Shown here: positions 55,321 through 62,320 of the stretch, piece by piece
Layout of the letters: each line of letters opens with the position of its first letter
Position numbering within the stretch: position 1 is the stretch's first letter
Assembly (NCBI RefSeq): GCF_017888565.1
Contig: NZ_JAGHFX010000090.1
Coordinates: forward strand, 1 to 64,000
Length of the DNA stretch: 64,000 nucleotides
Direction of reading: 5' to 3'
Source of the DNA: Clostridium sp.
GTDB lineage: Bacteria; Bacillota; Clostridia; Clostridiales; Clostridiaceae
The notes under the pieces: model-generated
Seen by the model: only the letters and a program-made list of their open reading frames with translations
Told to the model about the DNA's origin: nothing
The model's database searches: none
Position numbers and translations under genes: made by a program

Positions 55321-58011
55321 CTATAATAATTCACCATATCTCTTTATAAAAACTTTTTTTAATATCGTTGCTAATATCATATAAAGTATTATTATTACAA
55401 TTAAACAAGGAAAATAAATTGCTGGCATAGCAACCATATCCAAAGCTTTTCCAAAAGCTGTATAAGGAATTATAGTTCCTACTAATATTCCTAATGTTGT
55501 TAATGTTGTAAGTTGCCATGATGCTCTACTTTGAATAAATGGAATGTCTGGTGTTCTAATCATATGAATTACAAGAGTTTGAGACCATAATGATTCAACA
55601 AACCATCCTGCATGAAATAATCCCATAAATCCTAGTTGTTGTACTTCATTTAATGTGTGATATTGTCCTCCAAATACAAGCGGACAAATAAAGAAATACA
55701 TTAAAATATAAGTTGCAATATCAAAAACTGAACTTGTTGGTCCAATCCAAAACATAAATTTACTTATTGAACTCGCATCCCATTTACGAGGTAATCTTAG
55801 ATAATCTTCATCAACGTTATCCCAAGGAATAGTTATACAAGAAATATCATAAATTAAATTTAACATTAGTAATTGTATTGGTAACATAGGCAAGAATGGT
55901 AAAAATATACTTGCTATTAATACAGAAAACATATTTCCAAAATTTGAACTTGCTGTCATCTTTATATATTTAATAATATTAGCATATATCTTCCTGCCTT
56001 CTACTACTCCATCTTCTAATACCATTAAGTCTTTTTCTAATAGAATTATATTTGCTGATTCTTTTGCTATATCAACTGCTGTATCAACTGAAATTCCAAC
56101 ATCAGCTTCTGTCATAGCTGCTGCATCATTTATTCCATCCCCCATAAAGCCAACAGTATGTCCATTTTTTCTTAATGCAGCAACAACTCTTGTCTTTTGA
56201 TTAGGAGAAAGTTTAGCAAATACATTTGTTTCTTCCACAACTTCACTTAATAATTCATCATCCATTTCTTCAATATCTGATCCAAGTAATAAATTATTTA
56301 CCTTTATTCCAACTTGCTTACAAACAGAAGATGTTACTGCATCATTATCTCCAGTAAGAATTTTAACATTAACTCCAAAGTCTTCAAGAGCTCTTATTGC
56401 ATTAGCTGTACTTTCCTTTGGTGGATCTAAAAATGCTAGATATCCTATTAATACCATATCTGATTCATCTTTTACTGAAAGCTCACCTACCATTGATGGA
56501 TTATTCTTTTGAGCAATTCCTAATATACGCATTCCTTGATTATTGTGGTTAGAAACCGTATCTAAAATTTCTTTTTTAATTTCTTCTGTAATAGTTTCAA
56601 TTTTACCCTTATATTCTACATGAGAGCAAACTGATAGCATTTCTTCAATAGCACCTTTAGTTATTAATTGAGTTTTTCCAGCTTTATCTTCAACTACTAC
56701 GCTCATACGACGACGACTAAAATCAAATGGTATTTCATCTACTTTTTTATAATCATTCCATAATTCAATCATATCTTTTTCATTTGCATGATTTACTATA
56801 GCTATATCCATTAAATTCTTTAGTCCTGTTTGGTGATAGCTATTTAGAAAGGCATGACGTAACACTCTGTTATCTTCTTTTCCATGGATATCAAGAGAGT
56901 ATTCTAAAACTACCTCATCTTGAGTAAGTGTACCAGTTTTATCTGTACAAAGAACATTCATCGCCCCCAAATTTTGTATAGCATTTAAATCTTTTACTAT
57001 TACTTTCTTTTTTGACATAGAAACTGCACCCTTTGCAAGGTTTGCTGAAACTATCATAGGTAACATTTCTGGAGTAAGACCTACAGCTACTGAAATCGAA
57101 AATAAAAATGCTTCCATCCAATCGCCCTTAGTAAATCCATTCATAAATAATACAAATGGAACCATTACTAACATAAATCTAATTAATACCCATGATACTG
57201 AGTTTACACCTTTTTCAAAATTTGTAGTTACTTTTTTTCCTACTAGTTGTTTTGCCATTGATCCAAATATTGTATCATCACCAACATTAATTACTATTGC
57301 TATTGCTGACCCACTAATAACATTACTTCCCATAAAAGCTAAGTTATTTAATTCTATAGGATTTTTACTATCACAAGTAAAAGTTGTATCTACTTTTTCA
57401 ATTGGTTCACTTTCACCTGTCAAAGATGATTGACTAACAAATAAATCTTTTGCCTTTAATATTCTAACATCTGCTGGAATCATATCTCCAGCTGCAAGAT
57501 GAATTATATCTCCAACTACAATTTCATTAATAGGAATTTCTTTTGCTCCTACTCCTTTACGCTCAACACTTATAGTTGTTTTAACCATTTCACTTAATTT
57601 TTCAGCAGCTTTATTTGATTTTGTTTCTTGAACAAAACGAAGAATACCACTTACTAAAACCATTGAAGTAACTATAATAACTGATGTTGCATCCTTCTCA
57701 CTTGGCTCAACAATTACTATATCTGTAATGAATGATATAATCGCTAAAGCTAACAAAATTATAGTAAATGGATTAATAAATGCCTCTACTAGTCTTTTTA
57801 ATAAAGAATCTCCTTTTTGATGAGTAATTTCATTTTTTCCATATTCCTCTCTCATCAATTCAACTTTACTTTCCTCATAGCCACTATAACTTGTGTTATA
57901 CTTCTTTAAAATGTCCATTTCATCTTGCCTTGAAGATAAAATTAGTCTATTAACTCCTGAATTTACCTTTACTTCATCTGTAATTATTTTTCTAAATATC
58001 TTCTTTTTCAT
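55321..58011 (-). CDS. mgtA: Magnesium-importing P-type ATPase MgtA
   Basis: An 896-residue P3B-type ATPase that drives Mg2+ into the cell. Motifs in order: a cytoplasmic N-terminus, SLTGESEP in the actuator domain, the phosphorylation motif [12 protein letters not shown] (Asp near residue 356), KGAIEEML in the nucleotide domain, ILTGDND, and [11 protein letters not shown]. Membrane segments cluster near residues 88-130, 275-330 and the last 200 residues. AGGAGG lies eight bases before the ATG. It stands alone behind a ~520-base leader with an M-box riboswitch, which fits Mg2+-repressed expression. Confidence 0.96.
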
Positions 58012-58049
58012 CGTCCTATCCTCCTAAAAAATTTTAAATATTTTTAGAG

Positions 58050-58193
58050 GTAAGACATAGATCCAAAAGAAATATTATCTTTCAATTATTCAATTTTAAA
58101 TTGTAAGAGGAATGAATGATGTATAAGCCACTACATCATAGTTCCTCAAATTAATCAAATTCATATCTTTCCCTAGTGGATCTATGCACTTAC
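58050..58193 (-). promoter_or_regulatory. Nested leader stems around the mgtA upstream frame
   Basis: Outer stem: 58050-58064 pairs with 58178-58193 (CTTAC and ATAGATCC-type arms, one bulge). Inner hairpin: 58107-58112 with 58142-58147 and 58116-58123 with 58132-58139, loop of 8. The segment 58107-58119 can instead pair 12 of 13 bases with 58202-58214, which covers the start codon of the 37-codon frame. The two folds exclude each other, as in attenuators and translation-controlled switches. Confidence 0.55.
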
Positions 58194-58209
58194 TACTCTC
58201 TTCATCCAT
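58096..58209 (-). CDS. 37-residue upstream peptide between M-box and mgtA
   Basis: ATG 58209 follows AGGAGG with an 8-base gap, as good a site as that of mgtA itself, and the frame ends at TAA 58096. The peptide begins MDEESSKCIDP and ends FIPLTI. The N-terminus is acidic with a following proline, the kind of sequence reported to destabilise translating ribosomes at low Mg2+ in the E. coli mgtA leader peptide MgtL. There is no membrane segment. It lies 84 bases before mgtA, inside a set of alternative hairpins. No homologue is recognised; translation is inferred from the ribosome binding site and placement. Confidence 0.6.
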   Translation of the reverse strand: MDEESSKCIDPLGKDMNLINLRNYDVVAYTSFIPLTI

Positions 58210-58268
58210 TCCTCTCACCTCCTAAAATTCAAAATATCTATATAAACATAAAAATGGATTTAAACAAT

Positions 58269-58302
58269 AAAAAAACCCTTACCATAAATATAATGGTAAG
58301 GG
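58269..58302 (-). terminator. Riboswitch-controlled intrinsic terminator upstream of mgtA
   Basis: CCCTTACCAT/ATGGTAAGGG perfect 10-bp stem (58293-58302 with 58276-58285) and a T-run of seven on the minus strand. It lies between the M-box and the 37-codon frame, with no gene ending just before it, so it is an attenuator. Confidence 0.85.
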
Positions 58303-58367
58303 AAATAAACTTACAAGCTTAATACAATCGAATAAAAGATTGCACAAAAAACATAAAACAGAAAACT

Positions 58368-58517
58368 GCTTCATCATCGTTCAAGCTTCAGCTTCACAAG
58401 GCGATGAAATTGCATTAGTCTATGCCTTGGCTTCGACATAGACTGCTAACCTTCTCATAGTGTCTCCACTATTTTGCGGCAACAACCCTTATCCTTGTGG
58501 TAACCTCACCTACCGAA
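58368..58517 (-). ncRNA. M-box magnesium riboswitch
   Basis: The minus strand shows the M-box landmarks in order: TAGGTGAGG, CCACAAGGATAAGG, TTGCCGCAAAA, TGGAGACACTATGAG, a variable stem (about 58410-58443, TAGTCTATGCC with GGCATAGAC), and the closing GATGATGAAGCA. M-box RNAs bind Mg2+ and promote termination when Mg2+ is plentiful. The attenuator at 58269-58302 and mgtA follow, which is the expected context. Confidence 0.88.
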
Positions 58518-58541
58518 ATATTAAATTCTTAATACTCTTTC

Positions 58542-58570
58542 ATAATATGCAATGATTCTAAAATTGTCAA
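58542..58570 (-). promoter_or_regulatory. Sigma-A promoter of the mgtA leader
   Basis: Consensus TTGACA (58570-58565) and TATTAT (58547-58542) with a 17-base spacer. Start of transcription would be near 58535, some 15-20 bases before the M-box. Confidence 0.75.
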
Positions 58571-58758
58571 TACTTTTCATAAAATTAAAATAATATCATA
58601 ATTTTTCTCTATTTCATTATATATAATTGTAACTAAACTATTAACCTTTTTTTCAATTATTATAAATTTATTGTTATATTTATTTAGAAATGTTAAAATA
58701 ACGCTTAAATAATAATTAAAATTACAAATGAAAGAATGAAAAAATTAAGGAGATAACT

Positions 58759-59709
58759 ATGAAAAAGAAAAAAATCGCATTACTTTCAACTAGTATTTTA
58801 GGTGCACTATCTATTGGAGCGTTAGGTTTTGTTGGCAACTATTTTTATAATCTAGCACTTAACCCAGATACTCCTAAAGATGCTATCTTTGGTACACCTG
58901 AAGAAGCAAAATCTACAAGTGGGCAAGTTGTTGATTCTGATATAAATTGGCTATTTAATCAATCTAAGTTTTCTCACGAATATATAAATTCCTTTGATAA
59001 CTTAAAATTACATAGCTATAAAATATTGAATGAAGTACCAAATAGTAAATGGGTAATATCTGTACATGGATATACTAGTGAAGGATCTAACATGAGTAGC
59101 TATGCAAAAAGGTTTTATGATAGTGGCTACAATGTTTTAATTCCAGATTTAAGAGGGCACGGAAGTAGTGAGGGTAACTATATTGGGATGGGATGGGATG
59201 ATCGTCTTGATATCATAAGCTGGATAAATTTAATACTTGAAGATGATCCTAATGCAGAAATTATACTCCATGGAGTATCTATGGGAGCTGCTACTGTTTC
59301 CATGACTTCTGGTGAAAATCTTCCAAGTAACGTAAAAGCTATTATAGCAGACTGTGGTTATACTTCTGTTTGGGAACAATTTTCTTATCAATTAAATTTA
59401 TTATTTTCATTACCAGATTTTCCTGTAATGAATGCCTCATCAGTTGTCACAAAAGTTAAAGCTGGTTATACGCTAAAAGAAGCGTCTGCACTAAAGCAAG
59501 TAGCAAAATCTAAAACTCCAATACTATTTATTCACGGAGATAAAGATGATTTCGTTCCTTATTCAATGATGGATGAACTTTATAATGCTACAAGTTCTGA
59601 AAAAGAAAAATTAACAGTTGAAGGTGCTGGACATGCTAAAGCTTCAGAAGTAAATCCTGAACTTTATTGGTCTACAATTGAGAAATTTATAAATAGATAT
59701 GTTAATTAA
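58759..59709 (+). CDS. Secreted or membrane-anchored alpha/beta hydrolase
   Basis: A 316-residue serine hydrolase. Residues about 6-30 form a signal peptide or anchor. The catalytic nucleophile is in HGVSMGAAT (Ser near residue 175), the acid in HGDKDDFVP and the histidine in GAGHAKA. The oxyanion block is WVISVHGYTSEG and the fold continues with LIPDLRGHGSSEG. It resembles Ndr/YqkD-type Bacillus and Clostridium hydrolases. The substrate is unknown. AAGGAGA precedes the ATG. Monocistronic and divergent from mgtA. Confidence 0.88.
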   Translation: MKKKKIALLSTSILGALSIGALGFVGNYFYNLALNPDTPKDAIFGTPEEAKSTSGQVVDSDINWLFNQSKFSHEYINSFDNLKLHSYKILNEVPNSKWVISVHGYTSEGSNMSSYAKRFYDSGYNVLIPDLRGHGSSEGNYIGMGWDDRLDIISWINLILEDDPNAEIILHGVSMGAATVSMTSGENLPSNVKAIIADCGYTSVWEQFSYQLNLLFSLPDFPVMNASSVVTKVKAGYTLKEASALKQVAKSKTPILFIHGDKDDFVPYSMMDELYNATSSEKEKLTVEGAGHAKASEVNPELYWSTIEKFINRYVN

Positions 59710-60032: not shown

Positions 60033-60596
60033 TTATTTATTATATCCATTAACTATTAAGTCTAATTTCCCAGTTTCAGGATCTATAGCAAGTCCATGAA
60101 TGGATATGCCTTCTGGCATTAATGGATGATTTTTTATTAAATTAACACTATCCTTTATAGATTCTTCAACTGAATCAAATCCATGCAACCATTTCTTAAT
60201 GTCTATTCCTGCATTACAAAGTGTATCTAAAGATTCTTTTGAAATACCTCTATCAATAGCTTTTTGTAATAATTTATCTGTGTCTAAATTACACATTCCA
60301 CAACCATGATGTCCAATTACAAAAATTTCATCTATATTAAATTCATATATTCCAACAATTATACTTCTAATTACACTTCCAAAAGGATGCATAATTGCTG
60401 CTCCAGCATTTTTTACAATTTTAGCATCACCATTTTTTAAATTTAATGCTTTAGGTAATAAATCTGTAAGCCTTGTATCCATACAAGATAAAATAAGTAT
60501 TTTCTTCTTTGGATTTTTTGAAGTTATGTAATCCTCATAATACTTATTTTCTACAAAGTCCTTGTTAAATTCTATTATTTCATTTAATTTATTCAT
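60033..60596 (-). CDS. Beta-class carbonic anhydrase
   Basis: A 187-residue zinc enzyme interconverting CO2 and bicarbonate. Zinc ligands are C38 (LSCMDTRL), H96 and C99 (GHHGCGM), and the catalytic dyad is D40-R42. KNAGAAIMHPFGSVIRSI is the second family block. The length is normal for the short clostridial/archaeal clade. It is a single gene. The ATG is preceded by a GGGGAGCC-type site. Confidence 0.92.
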   Translation of the reverse strand: MNKLNEIIEFNKDFVENKYYEDYITSKNPKKKILILSCMDTRLTDLLPKALNLKNGDAKIVKNAGAAIMHPFGSVIRSIIVGIYEFNIDEIFVIGHHGCGMCNLDTDKLLQKAIDRGISKESLDTLCNAGIDIKKWLHGFDSVEESIKDSVNLIKNHPLMPEGISIHGLAIDPETGKLDLIVNGYNK

Positions 60597-60673: not shown

Positions 60674-62320
60674 TTATTGTTGTACATTTTTTATTTTATA
60701 TAATAAATTTTTATATTCTAAATCTAATTCTTCTTTTTTAACTTCGTTTGATTCTAAAGATAATAGTGAAATAATTTCTGTTAATCTATTTTTTAAAACT
60801 AGCAATTCTTCTTCACACTTCTTTTTATTAATATCAACTCTACCTTTATTTTTATGATCTAAATAGAAACTATAACCCCCATCAAATTCATGCAATTTAT
60901 TTTCTTTAATTTCAATAATATAATTACATATATTTGAAACAAATCTTATGTCATGAGATACTAAGATGACGGTCTTATCAGTATTTACTAAAGCCTCTTC
61001 TAATGCTTCTATAGATTTAATATCTAAATAATTGGTAGGTTCATCTAATATTAGTATGTTATTATCTGATAAAATCACTTTGCATAACCCTACTTTTACC
61101 CTTTCTCCTCCACTTAAATAAACTACTTTTTTATATACACTTTTATCTTTAAATCCAAATTCACTTAAATTAATTCTTATAAAAGTTTCATCATAAGATG
61201 AATCTTCCTTTATATTTTCTAAAATACTTTTATTATCTTCTAAAATGTTTTGTCCTTGATCAAAGTACCCTATTTTCACATTACTCGAAATTTTAACTTT
61301 ATCACTATTTTCATTAATTATATATTTTAATAAAGTTGTTTTACCACAACCATTTTCCCCTATCAAAGCAATTTTTCTTCCTTGTTTTATTTTTAAATTA
61401 ACATCATTTATTAATAACTTATCTTTTACATAAATTTTTGTGTCCTCTATTTCAATAGGGATCTTAGAGTTTAATTTCATGCTTGGTACAATATTAATTA
61501 TAATTTTTTTTGTATCCTTTGGTTTTTCTTTAACATCTAAATGATCTATCCTAGTTTTAATTGACTTTATGCTATTATCTATATTCTTCTTTCCTCTTTG
61601 ATCTCCCATTTTTATAGTTTTAGCTTCTGATGGTCCCATTCCTTTGGGAGCTTTTTTAATTCTATCTCTTAATACTTCCTTTTCTGATATGACTTTTTCT
61701 AATCTAGATTTTTCATGAATATATTTATTATATTCTCTTTCATTAACTTTTCTATTTTCTTCTTTTTGATTAAGATAATCACTATAATTTCCACTATATA
61801 TAGTCAGCTTTCCATCTTCAATTTCAACAATCTTATTGCATAAATCATCTAAAAAATTTCTATCATGAGAAATAATAAGTAATGTTCCTTTATACTTCTT
61901 AAACATTTTATTTAAAAGCTTCACACTTTCAACATCTAAATTAGAAGTAGGTTCATCTGCTGTTATAAGACTACTATTTTCTTCAAAAGCCTTGACTATC
62001 CTCATTTTAACCTTTTCCCCTCCAGATAAGTAATCATCATATTCATCTGGAACATGAAGCATACCTTTTAATTTCCCCTCCCCGTCAATTTTACACCACT
62101 CTTCTCTTTGACTAATATAAGAATAACTATCTGTAATATAAATATTTCCTTCATCAGCTTTTGTTTCACCTATTAATATTTTTATTAAAGTGGATTTTCC
62201 TACTCCATTTTCCCCTACTATTCCTATTCTATCTCCTTCCATTATTTCAAATTTATCTATATCAAGTAATAATCTATCACCATAATACTTCTTTAAATTA
62301 TTAATACTTCCAAGTTTCAT
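60674..62320 (-). CDS. ABC-F ATPase, probable antibiotic-resistance (Vga/VmlR/CplR-like) type
   Basis: A 548-residue soluble protein with two ATPase halves: Walker A GENGVGKST (near 36-44) and GENGCGKTT (near 327), signatures LSGGEKVKM and LSGGERVKVG. The interdomain linker (about 205-290) is long and charged and includes APKGMGPSEAKTIKMGD, similar to the linkers of target-protecting Vga, Lsa and VmlR proteins that reach the ribosomal peptidyl-transferase centre. There is no membrane domain. A terminator-like hairpin 35-65 bases upstream suggests induction by attenuation. Protection against lincosamides, streptogramins A or pleuromutilins is inference. Confidence 0.85.
   Translation of the reverse strand: MKLGSINNLKKYYGDRLLLDIDKFEIMEGDRIGIVGENGVGKSTLIKILIGETKADEGNIYITDSYSYISQREEWCKIDGEGKLKGMLHVPDEYDDYLSGGEKVKMRIVKAFEENSSLITADEPTSNLDVESVKLLNKMFKKYKGTLLIISHDRNFLDDLCNKIVEIEDGKLTIYSGNYSDYLNQKEENRKVNEREYNKYIHEKSRLEKVISEKEVLRDRIKKAPKGMGPSEAKTIKMGDQRGKKNIDNSIKSIKTRIDHLDVKEKPKDTKKIIINIVPSMKLNSKIPIEIEDTKIYVKDKLLINDVNLKIKQGRKIALIGENGCGKTTLLKYIINENSDKVKISSNVKIGYFDQGQNILEDNKSILENIKEDSSYDETFIRINLSEFGFKDKSVYKKVVYLSGGERVKVGLCKVILSDNNILILDEPTNYLDIKSIEALEEALVNTDKTVILVSHDIRFVSNICNYIIEIKENKLHEFDGGYSFYLDHKNKGRVDINKKKCEEELLVLKNRLTEIISLLSLESNEVKKEELDLEYKNLLYKIKNVQQ

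Follow-up and report, generated by a model that had tools for sequence, protein, structure and literature searches.

Comparative sequence analysis identifies the 37-codon reading frame between the M-box riboswitch and the mgtA gene of a Clostridium sp. contig (assembly GCF_017888565.1, contig NZ_JAGHFX010000090.1; the 64,000-nucleotide stretch analysed is called the window) as a real, conserved leader peptide, the codons of which take part in a covarying helix. In our judgement the leader peptide is probably a translated, ribosome-operated attenuator of mgtA that acts downstream of the M-box; its translation, ribosome drop-off on it and its response to Mg2+ are what we infer, and as the best reading of the data it would serve as a second Mg2+ sensor.

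All elements of the locus lie on the minus strand, in the order promoter-like site, M-box, terminator, Shine-Dalgarno (SD) sequence, 37-codon frame and mgtA (Table 1). The frame coordinates, the AGGAGG motif and the 8-base gap had been given in an earlier note made from the sequence alone, and all are correct when checked on the sequence; the placement of the frame between an M-box with its terminator and mgtA is confirmed by the RF00380 match, the terminator stem and the TIGR01524 match. The M-box terminator is the sole terminator detected across positions 58000–58750 (shuffle mean 0.0), and the promoter-like site is a consensus match only, in a region that holds 10 such sites vs 5.2 in shuffled sequences. 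The closest named relative of the window mgtA is that of Clostridium tertium (97% identity), which places the window near that species, and the 37-residue peptide matches no NCBIfam family at E 0.001.

Table 1 Features of the mgtA leader region in the window (position 1 is the first letter of the window).
Feature	Positions	Strand	Description
Promoter-like site	58542..58570	-	TTGACA-17-TATTAT, upstream of the M-box; 11/12 consensus matches
M-box Mg2+ riboswitch aptamer, RF00380	58366..58524	-	104.2 bits (gathering score 44); model positions 1-169 of 169
Intrinsic M-box terminator	58266..58302	-	10-pair stem 58302-58276, then T tract TTTTTTTATT
SD of leader ORF, AGGAGG	58218..58223	-	8-base gap to the start codon ATG at 58209; seen in the sequence
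Leader ORF	58096..58209	-	37 codons and stop; acidic N-terminus MDEESS; peptide MDEESSKCIDPLGKDMNLINLRNYDVVAYTSFIPLTI
Segment 1, leader SD tail and start codons	58202..58218	-	pairs with segment 3; 17 pairs, -24.7 kcal/mol
Segment 2, leader codons 6-11, GUAAGUGCAUAGAUCCA	58177..58193	-	pairs with segment 4; 16 pairs, -20.0 kcal/mol
Segment 3, last leader codons	58103..58119	-	partner of segment 1
Segment 4, switch segment just before the mgtA SD, UGGAUCUAUGUCUUACCUCU	58046..58065	-	pairs with segment 2 or, as predicted, with segment 5
Segment 5, mgtA SD region, UAGGAGGAUAGGACG	58012..58026	-	predicted masking by segment 4, -14.1 kcal/mol
mgtA, Mg2+-translocating P-type ATPase, 896 aa	55321..58011	-	TIGR01524, 1182.9 bits (cut-off 610.75); NF011702 above cut-off

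Three further genes of the window lie beyond the M-box. A divergent gene at 58759–59709 (plus strand) resembles alpha/beta hydrolases, with NCBIfam matches below the cut-offs; the gene at 60033–60596 (minus strand) has no NCBIfam match and resembles a beta-carbonic anhydrase in its motifs; and 60674–62320 (minus strand), about 2.5 kb from the leader peptide, encodes a CplR-family ribosome protection protein of the ABC-F type (NF043038 at 895.4 bits, against a cut-off of 780).

A search with the peptide in 98 related genomes gave matches in 39 at E values up to 10, three of them strong (the window's own, G006 and G014), and the homologues in the two near relatives share 92% and 78% identity with it (E 9.7e-19 and 6.2e-14). 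Three weak matches (G058, G015 and G052; E 0.11, 0.64 and 0.84 as a set) sit directly behind an M-box and are judged real for that reason; the remaining 33 weak matches were left out. Because the peptide is short, homologues were also gathered by gene context. The 68 genomes of the genus hold 27 mgtA genes in 25 genomes, and 25 of the 27 leaders carry an SD-led small ORF that begins with M, V or L followed by D or E, 24 of these behind an M-box match. All 24 mgtA genes with an M-box match have an ORF of this kind, and the two loci that have none (L055 and L057) have no M-box match upstream. Conservation of the frame among clostridial mgtA leaders, the absence of which the earlier note had named as grounds for giving up the leader peptide, is thus observed throughout the M-box-linked mgtA genes of the genus.

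Further mgtA loci were taken from named genomes (31 loci, some genomes repeated) and from 398 genomes of the phylum, 33 of which have mgtA. A single rule was applied, by which the ORF of 12–90 residues with the best match to the SD consensus is chosen between the end of the M-box and the start of the gene. For 46 M-box/mgtA loci (a count that leaves out the partial loci L115 and L117 and five mgtA matches without a locus, i.e., second copies in G142 and G177 and those in G174, G178 and G479), the rule found an ORF in all 46, with Asp or Glu at residue 2 in 42 and within residues 2–4 in 44. Dereplication on the first ten residues leaves 39 distinct sequences, of which 35 have an acid at residue 2. 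Later, two additional M-box/mgtA pairs came to light: L341 (in G437) has the acidic leader MDAGSSYDIG, and L259 (in G174), where the M-box lies 745 bases from mgtA, has no ORF by the rule, which brings the totals to an SD-led ORF at 47 of 48 loci and an acidic residue 2 at 43 of 48. Residue 2 is not acidic in L062 (where two frames tie and the alternative one reads MDIERSNN), L076 (MQETTDAIDDDD), L099 (MAMIMREDADDADG) and L104 (MIQIDDHPEPH). Leaders of this type are present in the named genomes of Lactococcus petauri (MDPESISSPDPIR) and Acidaminococcus (MDGASGGSHPH) and, less clearly, of Erysipelothrix. The mgtA start chosen by rule was wrong, lying too late, at L033, L034, L106, L110 and some others; the duplex-energy tests described below used other starts, and the rule's own only for L089, L091, L096 and L100.

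At the 32 mgtA loci without an M-box match, among which the M-box of L069 is truncated at the end of the locus and several (including L084 and L086) lay outside the Rfam-model scan, an ORF was found in 19, acidic at residue 2 in 5 and within residues 2–4 in 13. Six of these loci keep an acidic leader with no M-box even at E 0.05, i.e., L053 (MEEGSSK), L091 (MEDGSSH), L105 (MLEDGSSR), L106 (MSEDGNGSSK), L108 (MDTDGPSSR) and L111 (MVDDGSSS).

M-boxes in front of genes other than mgtA had been expected to provide a negative control, yet they carry acidic leaders as well and are no such control. Behind 148 of them with a recognisable next gene (149 less L259, which was first counted here; L120 and L125, both mgtA, L170, without a next gene, and three loci without a next gene were left out), an SD-led ORF was found in 88 cases, 74 of them with Asp or Glu at residue 2, and no such ORF in 60. 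A further 11 gave eight ORFs, seven of them acidic; these come from a late batch of 16 M-box rows, from which L336 and L337 were removed as contig edges and two of the other 14 had no next gene, so that 12 yielded nine ORFs, eight acidic, one of which is L341. The next genes, named by eye, look mostly like mgtE, with corA and other transporters besides, and typical leaders start with MDSGP, MDGDP, MDPDP, MDTDP or MDDPD.

The same rule seldom returns such frames elsewhere. On the reverse strand it found three ORFs (one acidic) in the 46 mgtA regions and 12 (none acidic) in 97 non-mgtA M-box regions, and behind 30 TPP riboswitches two (one acidic), these three controls being modest in size; among 143 SD-led ORFs of at least 150 residues in mgtA loci, 13 are acidic at residue 2. 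A Mn2+ riboswitch control was set aside, as a match exceeded the cut-off in only 3 of 119 genomes. The conservation of the frame together with the reverse-strand, TPP and long-gene controls rules out a chance ORF, and the high rate of acidic leaders behind non-mgtA M-boxes, compared with the low rate in the controls, makes the acidic leader a frequent companion of M-boxes in the phylum. A feature specific to mgtA or to Clostridium is rejected on the same grounds, since acidic leaders stand behind the M-boxes of many other genes. The earlier reading of the frame as a possible Mg2+ leader peptide is supported in part, the frame being conserved and its codons contributing, as described below, to a covarying helix of the sort known from enterobacterial Mg2+ leaders, and has to be widened in its scope: tied to mgtA it was too narrow, as the leader follows many non-mgtA M-boxes and also stands before mgtA at some loci without an M-box.

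Two observations concern the M-boxes themselves. Those before mgtA in the genus score 94–109 bits and 28 of the 34 other rows 125–154 bits, which resembles a division into subtypes; across the phylum at large the split breaks down, the M-box of the mgtA-linked L120 reaching 160 bits. At G022:C8:63966-64395 (L348 and L349), two M-box matches stand in tandem, separated by about 100 bases; the first scores 100 bits and the second 42, under the cut-off, and an acidic leader, MDAYPAQNYYKN, follows them.

Five segments of the leader transcript can form alternative helices (Table 1), referred to here by the segments that they join. The helix between leader codons and the switch segment (2:4) covaries in two clades. 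Among nine sequences of the window clade (A3), 85.4% of the cells are paired vs 82.3% in shuffles, with 0 of 500 shuffles as high and slid versions of the helix at or below 49.3%; the covariation score of 0.167 is reached by 0 of 500 shuffles, slid versions scoring 0.125 at most, and only two pairs have changed on both sides, a number that 162 of 500 shuffles reach. In the second clade (A4, 15 sequences), 88.1% of the cells are paired, a share that 0 of 500 shuffles attain and that in slid versions is 51.9% at most, six pairs have changed on both sides (0 of 500), and the covariation score is 0.312 (0 of 500 as high; slid versions at or below 0.114). Covariation between segments 4 and 5 is not above shuffles in the window clade, in which 411 of 500 shuffles pair at least as well, and is weak in the second clade, in which the scores of two slid versions equal or surpass it, so that the helix masking the mgtA SD is predicted and not proven. 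The 1:3 helix between leader start and leader end is likewise predicted, from folding energies.

Duplex energies were expressed as z values at 47 loci picked by hand from the leaders found, leaving out L049 (a near twin of L048), L066, L067, L076, L079, L086, L094, L099, L101, L104, L110 and L114 as well as the named duplicates L058–L061, L063 and L080. The median z is -2.13 for 2:4 (24 loci below -2 and 23 above), -2.11 for 1:3 (25 below -2) and -0.93 for 4:5 (12 below -2). Similar helices of different sequence occur in other loci, for example CUGAGAAUAGACAA with UUGUCUAUUCUCAG in L051. In L044, an insertion at the leader stop, made up of a tandemly repeated block of about 76 bases, sets leader and segment 4 about 140 bases further apart, yet segments 2 and 4 are both intact. 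By eye, the last leader codons (UGGAGGGGUGCUAA) of L258, which precedes a non-mgtA gene, copy that gene's own SD region, both matching one anti-SD. Also by eye, a second hairpin resembling a terminator lies between leader and mgtA in L037–L043 and L056, as if these relatives attenuated transcription too. The 5' arm of this hairpin can in some loci pair with leader codons, e.g., GAUGGGCAC:GUGCCUGUC in L042.

The effect of a ribosome on these helices was modelled by folding each leader with one ribosome footprint masked at a time, at the 104 loci of up to 330 bases (42 mgtA and 62 other). For the window, the mean openness of the mgtA start region is 0.20 in the naked leader, 0.48 with the ribosome at codon 3, 0.20 at codons 6–27 and 0.74 at codons 30–36; in the model, a ribosome at the start or the end of the leader would thus open mgtA, and a naked leader or a ribosome in mid-leader would close it. 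Relative to codon 3, a later codon lowers openness by more than 0.15 at 16 of 42 mgtA and 22 of 62 other loci and raises it by more than 0.15 at 10 of 42 and 20 of 62; as gains and losses are mixed, the model has no shuffled control, and the pseudoknot of 1:3 with 2:4 lies outside it, these numbers give the polarity of the switch only tentatively.

The most open state of the window mgtA start, with the ribosome at codons 30–36, and the loci that gain openness at later codons are what a different kind of switch would predict, in which a ribosome stalled near the leader end or stop codon under some signal blocks segment 3, frees segment 2 and opens mgtA, and in which the signal need not be a Mg2+-dependent drop-off at the N-terminus. 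Against this stands the conservation of the N-terminus of the leaders: the C-terminal half is poorly conserved, leader length varies between 21 and 83 residues across 47 loci, and the acidic residues are concentrated at the start, where they make up a share of 0.51 of residues 2–4 in the mgtA and the non-mgtA sets alike. We therefore consider stalling at the leader end unlikely.

Codon usage bears on whether it is the peptide or the RNA that has been conserved. Of 44 dereplicated mgtA leaders, 27 begin with ATG, 14 with GTG and 3 with TTG, and 40 have GAN as codon 2, with a free third base (entropy 0.36, 0.53 and 1.45 for the three positions), the pattern expected from selection on Asp or Glu. 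A start codon and an open frame were demanded by the rule in this set and in the set of 65 dereplicated non-mgtA leaders, for which an acid at residue 2 was in addition the entry condition, so that finding a start codon and a frame cannot by itself count as independent evidence. A pair of acidic residues, adjacent or separated by one position, lies within residues 2–13 in 28 of 44 mgtA and 37 of 65 non-mgtA leaders; closely spaced acidic residues are a kind of motif reported in PMC11282234 to stall or drop E. coli ribosomes. Other positions are kept at the codon level. Serine stands at residue 5 in 27 and at residue 6 in 29 of the 44 mgtA leaders, and 51 of these 56 serines are written AGT, a codon that makes up 958 of the 4,564 serine codons across mgtA at 78 loci; L108 and L111 use AGT-AGT though AGT makes up 3 of 54 and 3 of 56 Ser codons of their mgtA. 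Proline stands at residue 5 in 33 of the 65 non-mgtA acidic leaders, written CCT in 25 of 33, and CCT accounts for 586 of 2,330 Pro codons in mgtA genes. The peptide model alone does not account for this conservation of AGT and CCT, which goes beyond amino-acid need and may reflect an effect of the codons or of the RNA that adds to that of the peptide.

Taken to its limit, this would make the conserved letters an RNA element, with the ORF incidental or serving only to set the folding, a purely RNA switch to which the position of leader codons within the 2:4 helix would also be suited. Such a switch does not explain why three kinds of start codon stand behind an SD or why the third base of codon 2 is free, nor why the rule so seldom yields an ORF in the reverse-strand and TPP controls, and the acidic codons 2–4 of the window leader lie outside the 2:4 helix; we regard it as decidedly unlikely. 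The same Ser and Pro residues could instead point to a leader that senses another cue, such as proline or serine supply or translation stress, leaving Mg2+ to the M-box. The window leader has no run of codons for one amino acid, and across gene classes the motif shifts between Pro and Ser as the acid at residue 2 stays, which makes another cue very improbable.

MgtS of E. coli is a small protein that acts on a transporter, and the conserved N-terminus could in principle belong to a protein of that kind rather than to a regulatory leader. The authors of the study on mycobacterial M-box ORFs favour such a role for uORF2 (PMC12810186). Inspected by eye, the Bacillota peptides share no hydrophobic segment and no fixed length, the C-terminus is not conserved, and the codons are embedded in a covarying helix; of the alternatives weighed here, a small protein acting on the transporter is the one to which we give the least credence. 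An attenuator of the amino-acid biosynthesis type is rejected, as the 37 codons contain no single-amino-acid codon run, and an antisense gene is ruled out by the position of the frame on the mgtA strand and behind the M-box of mgtA.

In the ribosome-operated attenuator that we favour, the M-box would act first, controlling transcription through its own terminator, and the leader second, controlling translation and in some relatives perhaps also transcription via the second terminator-like hairpin. At normal Mg2+, ribosomes would finish the leader, 1:3 and 4:5 would re-form, and the mgtA SD would be masked. When Mg2+ is low, the early Asp and Glu residues would destabilise the ribosomes, which would abort within the first codons and be replaced by new ones re-initiating on segment 1, so that 1:3 could not form; segment 2 would stay free, 2:4 would form, and the mgtA SD would be exposed and mgtA translated. 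We infer drop-off on MDEESS by analogy with mgtQ and mgtL.

For Salmonella mgtQ, a small ORF between mgtC and mgtB, the available parts of PMC8092293 describe, with support from mutants, how Asp2 and Glu5 hold the ribosome on the first region and favour a helix that frees the mgtB SD, and how finishing the leader lets the closed form return; its authors state that ribosome destabilisation itself was not demonstrated in their work. The window leader resembles mgtQ in being a short ORF with its own SD directly before a Mg2+ transporter gene, in its acidic residues within the first few codons (D2, E3 and E4), in alternative helices that involve leader codons, with a competing helix predicted to mask the transporter SD, and in the proposed translational control, in which a ribosome held at the start would favour the ON state. 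Unlike the Gram-negative mgtQ system, for which the available parts of PMC8092293 mention no M-box, the start of the window ORF can also pair with its end. As in mgtL, the leader before mgtA of E. coli and Salmonella, the acids lie near the start; in mgtL, E2 and D4 cause drop-off, countered by EttA, and drop-off at low Mg2+ turns the gene on (PMC11282234, in part). The M-box leaders that start with MDPDP, MEPES or MDPES resemble the EPDP of mgtL described there, a likeness of EPDP to DPDP that is a lead only, as the peptides are too short for a test of descent. Unlike mgtL, which according to the same source works through Rho-dependent termination, the window has the intrinsic terminator of its M-box, and its leader faces a predicted SD-masking helix. 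With the ordinary M-box (ykoK leader, RF00380) the window shares aptamer and terminator; the leader ORF and the second switch lie beyond it, outside the Rfam match.

The earlier note knew of no leader peptide described behind a Gram-positive M-box, a statement that is not wholly correct and requires an exception for a published, conserved mycobacterial uORF. In that 2026 study (PMC12810186), the M-box of Mycobacterium tuberculosis is followed by the small ORFs uORF1 and uORF2 (Rv1805A). The authors propose that the M-box controls uORF2, which is conserved; uORF1 shows little conservation and holds an anti-SD, and loss of the uORF1 start raised uORF2 about 1.3-fold. The window locus resembles this arrangement in having a small ORF between an M-box and a Mg2+-related gene or operon and in its SD/anti-SD elements. 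The uORF2 peptide is reported there as mycobacteria-specific and without known role. An acidic M-box leader family in Bacillota was not found described in the literature covered, which had subscription papers and preprints outside its scope and, for broader surveys, comprised the best-ranked papers only, and a word search of PMC8632094, PMC11109978, PMC2965389 and PMC12121620 found no mention of an M-box leader ORF.

A more general proposal, for and against which we see the balance as even, is that acidic, ribosome-destabilising leaders form a common second stage behind Bacillota M-boxes (of mgtA, mgtE-like and corA-like genes) and act alone before some mgtA genes without an M-box. Mg2+ would then be read twice on one mRNA, as free Mg2+ by the aptamer and as ribosome stability by a leader whose codons pair with the transporter anti-SD and, in at least one locus (L258, by eye), copy the SD with which that anti-SD also pairs.

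The M-box is a textbook riboswitch, and in Gram-positive bacteria Mg2+ sensing for the genes behind it is usually assigned to it. Should many Bacillota loci have a ribosome-based sensor as a further stage, results of reporters with M-box leaders would need to be reread. Destabilisation of the ribosome by acidic nascent chains would, if the proposal is true, be a regulatory principle not confined to enterobacteria, and the mycobacterial M-box uORF, as yet unexplained, would gain a candidate role.
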